DNA of 64,000 nt from contig NZ_KK214998.1 in NCBI RefSeq assembly GCF_000633935.1, forward strand, positions 1,254,010 to 1,318,009, in the 5' to 3' direction. Below the pieces are notes generated by a model, which worked only from the letters and a program-made list of their open reading frames with translations, searched no databases and was not told the origin of the DNA. Below are positions 8,240 to 36,964 of this stretch, piece by piece. The translations under genes were made by a program, and so were the position numbers. The number at the start of each line of letters is the position of its first letter. Positions within the stretch are counted from its first letter, which is position 1. This DNA comes from Ectothiorhodospira haloalkaliphila ATCC 51935. GTDB lineage: Bacteria; Pseudomonadota; Gammaproteobacteria; Ectothiorhodospirales; Ectothiorhodospiraceae.

Positions 8240-8698
8240 TCATGCGTGAGGGTCAGCGGGCGGAACCCGCAACGACAAGGTGACCGGCCCATCATTGATG
8301 AGCGAGACGGCCATATGGGCTCCGAACTGGCCCGTGGCGACATGCGGCCAGGCGTGACGGGCCTGGCTCACCAGCTCATTGAACAGACGCTCGCCTTCCT
8401 CGGGCGGGGCGGCAGGGGTGAAACTGGGGCGCATGCCCTTGCGGGTGTCGGCGGCCAGGGTGAACTGGGGTACGAGCAGCAGGCCACCCTGGATATCGCG
8501 GACGGACAGGTTCATGCGACCCTCGGCATCCTCGAACACCCGGTAACCCAGCAGTCGCTCCAGCAGGCGTTCGACCTGGGCGGGGCCATCGCCCCGCTCC
8601 ACCCCCACCAGCACCAGCAGGCCGACGTCGATGGACCCGACTGTTTGACCGTCCACCTCCACGCTGGCGCGCGTCACCCTCTGCAGCAGGCCGATCAT
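8240..8698 (-). CDS. dtd: D-aminoacyl-tRNA deacylase
   Basis: Hydrolyses D-amino acids wrongly attached to tRNA; cytoplasmic, 152 aa, the usual family length. The start is the ATG at 8698, which overlaps the stop of pip as ATGA, implying translational coupling. The second signature NDGPVT is intact near the C terminus. The first, normally SQFTL, reads PQFTL here, so the Ser is replaced by Pro. Longer upstream frames belong to the pip gene. The call is secure; whether the Pro changes activity cannot be told. Confidence 0.93.
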
Positions 8699-9651
8699 GC
8701 CAGACGATCCGCCAGGGCGTTGGTGGCGGCCACCAGTTCGCGGGTGATCCCTGGCTCGCTGGCGGAGTGACCGGCATCGGGCACGATATGCAGATCCGCC
8801 ACCGGCCATGCCTTGTGCAGGGCCCAGGCCTGATCCACGGGACAGACCACATCGTAACGGCCATGCACGATGGTGCCCGGGATATCGGCGAGCAGATGGG
8901 CATCACGGAGCAACTGGTCCGGCTCCAGAAAGCACAGGTGCTTGAAGTAATGGCATTCAACCCGGGCCAGACTCAGGGCCACATAAGGGTCCTGGAAATG
9001 CGCCACCACGCGTGGATCGGTGGTCAGGGTGGCGGCCCGGCCCTCCCATTGAGACCATGTCTTGGCGGCCGCCATGCGCGCCACCTCGTCATCGCTGGTG
9101 AGCCTACGATAGTATGCCTCCACCATGTCATCACGCTCTGCCTCGGGAATGGGCTCCAGATAGTCTTCCCAGTAATCCGGGAACAGTCGCCCGGCGCCAT
9201 CCTGATAGAACCACTGGATGTCCTGGCGCCGGCACAGGAAGATCCCCCGCAGGATCATGCCCAGCACCCGCTGCGGGTGGCGCTGGGCATAGGCCAGGGC
9301 CAGGGTGGAGCCCCAGGAACCACCGAAGACGACCCAGCGATCGATGCCCAGGTGCTCGCGGATGCGCTCCATGTCGTCCACCAGATCCCAGGTGGTGTTG
9401 TTCTCCAGGCTCGCGTGAGGGGTGGAACGGCCGCAGCCTCGCTGATCAAACAGCACGATCCGGTACCGGGCGGGATCGAAGAAACGCCGGTGCCACACAT
9501 CACAACCAGCGCCCGGCCCGCCATGGAGGAAGATCACCGGCAACCCCGAGCGGTTGCCACACTCCTCCAGGTACAGACGATGAGTGTTGTCCACGCTCAG
9601 TTGCTGGGAACCATGGGGCTGGATGCTGGGGTAAAGAAGATCGCTGGGCAT
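8695..9651 (-). CDS. pip: proline iminopeptidase, alpha/beta hydrolase
   Basis: Removes N-terminal proline from peptides; predicted cytoplasmic, 318 aa, typical length. The oxyanion motif HGGPGAG and the nucleophile elbow GGSWGS are clear, and catalytic Asp and His lie in the expected C-terminal part (GHSA). The ATG at 9651 is preceded by GGTGAG. It forms a two-gene operon with dtd through a 4-base overlap. Confidence 0.94.
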
Positions 9652-9841: not shown

Positions 9842-9859
9842 TGTAGGAAAATCCCTACA
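9842..9859 (+). promoter_or_regulatory. GacA/UvrY/LetA-type activator box
   Basis: TGTAGGAAAATCCCTACA is a perfect dyad TGTAGG-N6-CCTACA. It fits the TGTAAG-N6-CTTACA pattern known upstream of rsmY, rsmZ and csrB. It lies about 80-95 bases before the inferred start of a small RNA with CsrB-like features. Confidence 0.65.
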
Positions 9860-9935
9860 GAAAAAACCCGCAAAACGGCAAAAAAGGGCTTTTCAGGCGT
9901 TACAGACCCGACACTTCGTGTGGGATCATATTCCC

Positions 9936-10096
9936 CATGGTGCAAGACGCGCCGGGCAAGGAACCCTGGATTGCCGGGATCAAGGATTGACACCAGCCAG
10001 GCGTGGAAAGAATCCACTTGGGAGGCAAGGACGCCGCTTCAATCACCTTATGCCAGGATGGCATGGCCCTCGTCAGGGATGGCGAGGGTTTTTTTT
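9936..10096 (+). ncRNA. candidate CsrB/RsmZ-type small RNA sequestering CsrA
   Basis: About 160 bases, with an approximate 5' end, holding repeated GGA motifs in small hairpins as CsrA-titrating RNAs do. Seen: GGG-CAAGGAA-CCC at 9954-9966; TCAA-GGA-TTGA at 9980-9990; GTGGA-AAGAA-TCCAC at 10003-10017; GGC-AAGGAC-GCC at 10024-10035; ATGCC-AGGAT-GGCAT at 10050-10064; and the terminator hairpin whose loop contains CAGGGATGG. A GacA-type box lies upstream. No long reading frame with a ribosome binding site covers it. A poorly defined -10 (CATATT at 9927) is the weakest part. CsrA and the GacS/GacA pair are not in the window. Confidence 0.65.
10067..10096 (+). terminator. terminator of the CsrB-like RNA
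   Basis: CCCTCG and CGAGGG form a 6-bp stem around a 10-base loop, followed by eight T. It ends 69 bases before ttcA, so it closes a transcript that is not ttcA. Confidence 0.85.
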
Positions 10097-10164: not shown

Positions 10165-10974
10165 ATGACCCAGCCCACACGCCCTTCCCGCTCTCTCATC
10201 CGCTGCACCGGCCGCGCCATCGGCGATTTTCGCATGATCCGCGAAGGGGATCGACTGCTCCTGGGGCTCTCGGGAGGCAAGGATTCACTCACCCTGCTGC
10301 ATCTGCTGCTGTACTTTCAGGCCCGGGCACCGGTGCGTTTTGAACTGGGCGCGGTCACCATCGACCCCCAGACCGGCCTGACCGACAAACGAGCGCTGAT
10401 TCCCTATCTGGATGACCTGAAGGTGCCCTACCACTACGTGAGCGAGCCCATCCTGGAGCGGGCCGAAAAGCATCTGGACAACCATTCTTACTGTGCCTTC
10501 TGCTCGCGCATGCGCCGTGGACTGATCTACCGCACCGCCCGGGAGCACGGATATACGGCGATCGCGCTGGGCCAGCACCTGGATGACCTGGCCGAGAGTT
10601 TTCTCATGAGCGCCTTCAACGGAGGGCGCCTGAAGACCATGAAAGCTCATTACCGGATTGAAAGCGGTGACCTGCGGGTGATCCGCCCACTGGTCTATGC
10701 GCGAGAGCGTCAGATCCAGGATTTTGCCCACGCCGCCGCACTGCCCATCCAGGACGAGAACTGTCCCACCCGCTACGGCACGCCCACCCAACGCCCGCGC
10801 ATGAAGGCCTTGCTGGCCCGGGAGGAGGCCGATAACCCCCATCTCTTCAAGAGCCTGGTGCGCACCTTGATGCCGCTGATGTCCGTGGGCCTGGATGACG
10901 TGCCCCAGGCGGATGAGGCCGACGCACCTGGCGCCGCCAACCCAACGGAGGCGGTTGTTTCATGGAAGCCCTGA
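10165..10974 (+). CDS. ttcA: TtcA-family tRNA 2-thiocytidine synthetase (PP-loop)
   Basis: ATP-dependent enzyme thiolating cytidine 32 of tRNA; cytoplasmic, 269 aa from the ATG at 10165. The PP-loop SGGKDS is near residue 40, followed by CAFC and a later Cys in ENCPTRY, which together fit the three-Cys iron-sulfur site of TtcA. The HLDD motif is present. It is shorter than E. coli TtcA (about 311 aa), mainly at the termini. An upstream in-frame extension runs through the small RNA terminator and was rejected. The next gene overlaps its end by 13 bases. Confidence 0.88.
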   Translation: MTQPTRPSRSLIRCTGRAIGDFRMIREGDRLLLGLSGGKDSLTLLHLLLYFQARAPVRFELGAVTIDPQTGLTDKRALIPYLDDLKVPYHYVSEPILERAEKHLDNHSYCAFCSRMRRGLIYRTAREHGYTAIALGQHLDDLAESFLMSAFNGGRLKTMKAHYRIESGDLRVIRPLVYARERQIQDFAHAAALPIQDENCPTRYGTPTQRPRMKALLAREEADNPHLFKSLVRTLMPLMSVGLDDVPQADEADAPGAANPTEAVVSWKP

Positions 10975-36890: not shown

Positions 36891-36964
36891 TGGAGCGGGT
36901 GATGGGAATCGAACCCACGTCATCAGCTTGGGAAGCTGAGGTTCTACCATTGAACTACACCCGC
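36891..36964 (-). tRNA. tRNA-Gly (anticodon CCC)
   Basis: The minus strand folds as a full cloverleaf of 74 bases with an encoded CCA. The acceptor arms are GCGGGTG and CACCCGC. The anticodon loop is TTCCCAA on a 5-bp TCAGC/GCTGA stem, giving anticodon CCC. The T loop is TTCGATT. It lies between thiO and thiS, in the thiO orientation. Confidence 0.96.

Follow-up and report, generated by a model that had tools for sequence, protein, structure and literature searches.

The region described here lies in a 64,000-nucleotide stretch of the genome of Ectothiorhodospira haloalkaliphila ATCC 51935, which we call the window. It occupies the gap between a prolyl aminopeptidase gene and a ttcA-like gene that point away from each other. 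The features relevant to the argument are as follows.

8240-8698, minus strand: dtd, D-aminoacyl-tRNA deacylase, a syntenic neighbour (open frame; tblastn against genes next to the RNA at other loci)
8695-9651, minus strand: pip, prolyl aminopeptidase, a syntenic neighbour divergent from the RNA (TIGR01249, 433.7 bits, cut-off 259.75)
9842-9859, plus strand: predicted GacA/UvrY-type box, TGTAGG-AAAATC-CCTACA (exact match and congener boxes)
9924-9929, plus strand: predicted -10-like hexamer GATCAT, 64 bases past the box (alternative CATATT at 9927-9932, 67 bases past it)
9937-10096, plus strand: predicted sRNA of about 160 nt (inferred start, end set by the terminator; 9 GGA, 5 AnGGA; homologues in relatives)
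9939-9953, plus strand: 5' hairpin GGTGC-AAGAC-GCGCC (alignment read by eye; kept in congeners, as GGTAC/GTACC in G004)
10038-10047, plus strand: conserved element TTCAATCACC (congener and family alignments)
10050-10064, plus strand: hairpin ATGCC-AGGAT-GGCAT with AGGA in the loop, a candidate CsrA site
10067-10096, plus strand: intrinsic terminator CCCTCGTC-AGGGAT-GGCGAGGG-T8 with AGGGA in the loop, a candidate CsrA site
10165-10974, plus strand: ttcA-like gene of the tRNA 2-thiocytidine synthetase family, downstream of and outside the RNA (NF007972, 210.6 bits, below the cut-off of 272)

The frame at 8240-8698 is one that we take to be dtd from its sequence. An earlier note on this DNA had placed a candidate CsrB/RsmZ-type small RNA upstream of ttcA, and the start of the ttcA-like frame at 10165 agrees with that position. 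The same note reported a perfect TGTAGG-N6-CCTACA dyad, which is indeed exact at 9842-9859 (TGTAGGAAAATCCCTACA) and is the sole perfect match to this pattern in the window. With up to two mismatches allowed, the window holds three matches against a shuffle mean of 1.1, and three were reached in 12 of 100 shuffles; because shuffles yield similar numbers, the near-matches carry no meaning. Across the whole 3.45-Mb genome, the perfect pattern occurs at five places and a reversed control pattern at none, whereas the counts with one mismatch are 13 and 6. The identical 18-mer sits beside the same locus in records of E. mobilis, E. magna, and E. marina. Half-sites of the form TGTAAG and/or CTTACA are found at the locus in congeners G003, G005, and G002, and the UvrY consensus given in PMC4682653 is TGTAAGN6CTTACA.

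Four more perfect boxes and one near copy are present on contig C4 of the same genome, 194-304 bp ahead of open reading frames rather than RNA genes (L062:3756 and 4777; L063:12583 and 3095 (one mismatch); L064:3505). The frames behind them encode an outer-membrane beta-barrel protein (PF13505), a lipoprotein-like protein, and a membrane-protein-like product, and two further frames have look-alike N-termini with no Pfam or NCBIfam match. Perhaps GacA also controls protein genes directly in this genome. In genus g4, loci L027, L028, L029, L033, and L034 have another imperfect palindrome (e.g., TTGTGGAAGATTCCTACAA) closely past the first box, which may be a second GacA site.

A simple sigma-70 scan of the stretch found no promoter at the locus. 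Among 28 box-bearing loci, 24 have a hexamer matching TATAAT at four or more of six positions that lies 43-44 or 64-67 bases past the box, a count made without a shuffled control and with equally good hexamers elsewhere in some of the loci. The two spacings lie roughly two turns of the helix apart, which fits an activator that has to face RNA polymerase. The gene for a CsrA-sequestering sRNA should have a GacA/UvrY box upstream of its promoter, and the predicted elements at this locus stand in that arrangement.

Past the dyad, the earlier note described a terminator-ended region of about 160 bases, and this region can be recognized at about 9937-10096, closed by a hairpin terminator (stem at 10067-10088) and eight T residues (10089-10096). 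The 159-nt stretch at 9938-10096 contains nine GGA motifs, five of which have an A one or two bases ahead. Its GGA and AnGGA counts are reached by 0.39% and 0.27%, respectively, of 12,770 same-length stretches from both strands of the window. Dinucleotide shuffles of a 163-nt version reach the counts in 2.5% (GGA) and 3.3% (AnGGA) of 1000 cases, and in a second run with a slightly different stretch the AnGGA count is reached by 5.3% of 300 shuffles. The antisense strand of the predicted sRNA has a single GGA. For the window sequence alone, the GGA excess is modest.

The minimum-energy fold leaves three of the nine GGA motifs unpaired. The mean unpaired probability exceeds 0.5 for four of the nine, and it is 1.0 for two, which are located in the 3' hairpins at 10056 and 10077. 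The claim that at least five GGA motifs reside in hairpin loops was therefore too generous: nine motifs are present, but just these two are firmly in loops. The ATGCC-AGGAT-GGCAT hairpin singled out in the same claim is found at 10050-10064. Fold stability relative to shuffles is mild (z -1.62), and the central part of the RNA gave ambiguous predicted folds, which were set aside. Several GGA motifs, with AGGA or ANGGA in hairpin loops, are the mark of a CsrA sponge, and the region carries them.

Comparison with relatives adds to these observations. A blastn search of 58 relatives gave matches in 12 genomes; within the genus, the match covered most of the RNA in eight of 10 genomes, counting that of the window, and the box alone in G004. 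RNAalifold, when applied to all 17 family sequences, returned the terminator alone (six pairs). For this reason, we built a covariance model (R1) from the 3' part of the RNA in nine congeners, with a structure hand-drawn from the window sequence. In the nine-congener alignment, whose structure counts are biased by the hand-drawn structure in its own favor, 94.6% of cells are paired (39-67% in slid controls), six pairs are altered on both sides (11 of 500 shuffles are as high), and the paired percentage and covariation score are reached by none of 500 shuffles. The number of pair types in this alignment is no better than in shuffles (210 of 500).

Most loops remain AGGA, AGGGA, or AAGGA across relatives while the stems vary. 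The exceptions are CGGGA in G003, TGGA in G004, and the terminator loops of G013, G015b, and G017b, which have no GGA. The earlier note would have been undone by relatives that do not keep the GGA hairpins; instead, they retain the box and the terminator together with most GGA loops, and the stems change in a compensatory manner. A shortened RNA of about 90-100 nt is seen at L021 (G004) and L080 (G013), where ATCACC and the 3' hairpins are kept along with five and two GGA motifs, respectively.

Of 47 Ectothiorhodospiraceae genomes, 16 contain the RNA according to covariance models, and nine of these 16 supplied training sequences. The R1 training set comprises nine of the 10 Ectothiorhodospira genomes, and its nine matches there arise by construction. 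Outside this set, R1 found the RNA in seven family genomes from three other genera (1/1 for g2, 5/5 for g4, and 1/1 for g5). A second copy is present in four of the five g4 genomes (L033, L034, L035, and L085), although L035 is cut by a contig end and L085 has no recognizable box. Weak R1 matches in genus g3 (G014, G024, G025, and G063; E 0.001-0.008) were rejected, with no box within 3 kb and no TCAATCACC. Two of these (L081 and L082) fall inside long open frames, and the others (L083 and L084) are hairpins just past long open frames.

A second model (R2), made from 20 loci, was run on 370 sampled gammaproteobacterial genomes. Matches at E 1e-4 or better were obtained in at least 18 of these, a lower bound given the strict filters and the few candidates scored per genome. 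Two are Ectothiorhodospira and 14 others look real, whereas the remaining two (L146 and L152) were rejected as bare terminators that have no box, motif, or neighbors. The 14 distant copies that we checked span 11 GTDB families. Adjoining pip and/or dtd genes are found for 13 of the 14, a GacA-type box (by one relaxed pattern) for 11, and a correctly placed ATCACC for 10.

An exact scan of GTDB genomes with the 18-mer yielded 52 stretches, including four more loci of the same design beside dtd or pip (L110, also in R2; L114; L116; and L120). The latter three were missed by R1 at useful E-values and are therefore independent of that model, yet they were chosen by GGA counts. In many of the remaining stretches, the 18-mer probably occurs by chance. 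Model searches covered 45 of the 52, leaving out L088, L094, L121, L123, L128, L133, and L136 from other phyla; the GGA scan covered all 52, and six were inspected closely. L095 and L098, which are GGA-rich past an exact box, were not counted: a T-run terminator was found for neither, and L095 by eye enters an open frame.

AnGGA motifs average 6.7 per locus across 37 loci, compared to 2.3 for shuffles and 0.27 for the antisense strand, where six box-less loci were given an assumed start. At all 37 loci the count is above the shuffle mean, and at 36 of them it is above the antisense count, bearing in mind that R1 and R2 both contain GGA hairpins and that their matches are thus selected for them. 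More than 5% of shuffles reach the AnGGA count at four loci (G000, G004, G013, and G396).

The other components of a Gac/Csr circuit also appear to be encoded in the window genome. The csrA gene lies behind an aspartokinase frame, and its product matches CsrA with 90.9 bits, over the cut-off. A response regulator at C3:70637-71272 has UvrY/SirA/GacA as its best family (204.8 bits, below the cut-off of 280; the next family scores 135.9). This gacA gene is followed by a uracil-DNA-glycosylase-like frame and then, two genes on, by uvrC (names assigned by eye). BarA is the best match for a hybrid kinase at C1:78598-81246 with sCache, HAMP, HisKA, HATPase, REC, and Hpt domains (434 bits, below the cut-off of 890). 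At C4:1495252-1497183 is another kinase, an alternative GacS candidate whose 470.8-bit match is confined to the kinase part. A CsrA sponge presupposes CsrA and GacS/GacA in the same genome, and all are predicted here, with GacA and BarA matches below the NCBIfam cut-offs. A more divergent csrA-like gene (63 bits; G000:C1:197670-197819, L061) is also present, and G007 likewise has a second one.

By match strength, a GacA orthologue was assigned in 17 of the 47 family genomes, namely all those of g1, g2, g4, and g5. Seven of the 17 were checked (G002, G005, G006, G010, G012, G013, and G015), and their proteins are 51-70% identical to GacA of the window genome. The uvrC gene adjoins gacA in five of the seven; the contig ends in G010, and G013 has no uvrC in the stretch. 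Of the 17 genomes assigned a gacA orthologue, 16 carry the RNA, and it is found in none of the 30 genomes of g3, where no orthologue was recognized. Although 12 of the 30 g3 genomes match the GacA family model at E 1e-30, the three strongest of the checked matches (G023, G027, and G061) have 33-36% identity and no uvrC in the stretches examined; the check covered these three, and G058 and G062 score similarly. The csrA gene is present in 25 of the 30 g3 genomes, and no credible RNA copy was found among the 30. Because g3 is one clade, the absence of the RNA there may reflect a single event.

Some genomes depart from this pattern. G006 (2.0 Mb, same genus) has a uvrC-linked gacA gene (52% identical; L166) and csrA, yet no RNA copy and no perfect TGTAGG box were detected in it. 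In G010 the RNA is present and csrA gave no match, in an assembly that is 81% complete. The gacA matches of G005 (L162:5279-5903) fall in two frames, as if the gene were broken or misassembled, and the sRNA locus of that genome is intact in design.

The similarity to known regulators does not extend to membership in a known sequence family. The window locus matched no Rfam family over its gathering score, RsmX and RsmY families included, and the same was true of the loci scanned elsewhere. At E values up to 10, the 551 bases searched gave Termite-flg, Spot 42, TB11Cs4H2, NsiR1, and U6atac (E 1.1-9.9), all sub-gathering; four of the five fall on the 3' hairpin/terminator end and resemble chance matches. 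The CsrB model (RF00018) matched none of the 47 family genomes at E 0.01 and nothing in the window, and it did match the E. coli control. The PrrB_RsmZ model (RF00166) had no match over its cut-off among the 47 genomes and none in G000, the window genome, although none of 14 control genomes exceeded the cut-off either and two matched below it. Sub-threshold RF00166 matches were seen in three of the 47 (G003, 33.2 bits, both strands; G005; and G020), on contigs other than that of the locus in G003 and G005. The covariance-model check that the earlier note had recommended, with CsrB and RsmZ families, is thus negative at the locus, which falls outside those sequence families of Rfam. An ordinary tRNA gene at 36894-36964 on the minus strand is the sole gathering-level Rfam match in the window.

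Just ahead of the 3' hairpins lies the conserved element. The TCAATCACC sequence there is invariant in nine of nine congener sequences, and ATCACC or ATCACA is found in 16 of 17 family sequences. The AUCACCU portion of this element presumably resembles the 3' end of 16S rRNA. Our first guess, by analogy, is that the CAATCACC element might be an RNase E site, because an unstructured RNase E site immediately precedes the terminator of E. coli CsrB (PMC7652899), and a pairing seed comes second. The predicted accessibility of the element (median 0.51, compared to 0.40 elsewhere in the RNA, with the element more accessible in 20 of 28 sequences) is barely above average and favors neither. It is also conceivable that a GacA-driven sRNA works here mainly by base pairing to mRNAs through CAATCACC, with CsrA binding secondary or absent. 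Such a role would account for the invariance among congeners and for ATCACC in 10 of the 14 distant copies, as well as in L114 and L116, which the models did not find. However, it leaves the GGA excess in all 37 loci and the GGA loops unexplained, the element is only slightly more accessible than its surroundings, and its frequency among model matches is inflated because the models reward it. We therefore regard this alternative as quite improbable.

Nor do we favor reading the region as a ttcA leader that acts in cis, either an attenuator or a regulated 5' UTR, whose dyad controls ttcA itself. The ttcA-like gene follows directly and has the same orientation, and several further loci are likewise followed by ttcA (e.g., L138, L139, L110, and L080). 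A leader should lie directly upstream of ttcA wherever it is present, but in g4 the examined flanks of the four second copies contain neither ttcA nor pip nor dtd, and of the 14 distant copies just L138 and L139 have ttcA in the examined flank (up to 1.5 kb), while the other 12 have none. A strong terminator also stands 68 bp ahead of the ttcA start. Because copies of the RNA exist without ttcA, a leader function is very unlikely. Finally, a dyad and a terminator could by coincidence frame a purine-rich gap. Terminator-like sites are indeed frequent by chance (the stretch has one, and 1.0 is expected from shuffles), and the GGA statistics of the single sequence are modest, but conservation, covariation, and synteny contradict this explanation so strongly that we consider its probability close to negligible.

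The locus is therefore best read as a gene for a GacA-activated, CsrA-sequestering sRNA of the CsrB/RsmZ type, which we hold to be very probable from the genomic evidence. That evidence, which upholds the classification proposed in the earlier note, consists of the box, the terminator, the GGA excess, the kept loops with co-varying stems, the presence of csrA, uvrC-linked gacA, and candidate BarA-like kinases, and the co-occurrence of the RNA with gacA. Its functional kind is known, while its sequence family is syntenic and apparently undescribed. A further proposal, which we consider rather doubtful as a whole, is that the dtd/pip locus is an ancient home, passed on vertically, of the gammaproteobacterial CsrA sponge, which is absent from Rfam through fast drift, and that CAATCACC has a second function, either regulated RNase E entry or as an mRNA-pairing seed, to give a two-function RNA.

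If the sRNA operates as its relatives in E. coli and Pseudomonas do (PMC7652899, PMC4682653), then a BarA/GacS-type kinase would sense a signal and cause GacA to be phosphorylated. GacA-P would bind the dyad at 9842-9859 and activate a promoter about 64-77 bp downstream, leading to an RNA of about 160 nt (about 9937-10096) that stops at the T8 terminator. The GGA motifs of this RNA, most assuredly those in the two 3' hairpin loops, would bind CsrA dimers and keep them off target mRNAs, and the kinase signal would thereby relieve CsrA regulation. Transcription, the start site, binding by GacA and CsrA, the number of bound dimers, and the direction of the effect are all projected from those two systems.

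These predictions would add one component to the Gac/Csr circuit of purple sulfur bacteria. Among the open-licence PMC papers searched, none was seen to describe this locus or to link CsrB with Ectothiorhodospira. The CSRNA_FIND survey by Kulkarni and others may have predicted some of these RNAs already. The covariance model, together with the dtd/pip syntenic anchor, could guide searches for the CsrA antagonist in those lineages of Gammaproteobacteria for which Rfam detects none. Likewise, genus g3, which retains csrA in most genomes and has neither a recognized gacA orthologue nor the RNA, offers a natural case of CsrA working without a sponge.

Among known systems, CsrB and CsrC of E. coli share with this locus an upstream UvrY/GacA-type 18-bp inverted repeat, repeated GGA motifs (some in hairpin loops), and an intrinsic terminator. 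The RsmX, RsmY, and RsmZ RNAs of Pseudomonas are 100-160 nt long, which is similar to the size of the predicted RNA, and their gene neighbors differ from those described here. GGA hairpin loops are common to these Pseudomonas RNAs and to that of Ectothiorhodospira, and both have a palindromic upstream sequence, which in Pseudomonas serves GacA control (PMC2375449). E. coli CsrB is richer in GGA, with 22 motifs (PMC7652899) versus nine here, and its RNase E site occupies the position where the Ectothiorhodospira RNA has CAATCACC (PMC7652899). The box is centered at -183/-182 for csrB (PMC4682653), versus about -87 from the inferred start in our case. According to a proposal by Zere and others, transcription of CsrA-antagonist sRNAs by BarA-UvrY orthologues extends across the gamma-Proteobacteria (PMC4682653), and the Ectothiorhodospira locus is a concrete case of that proposal.
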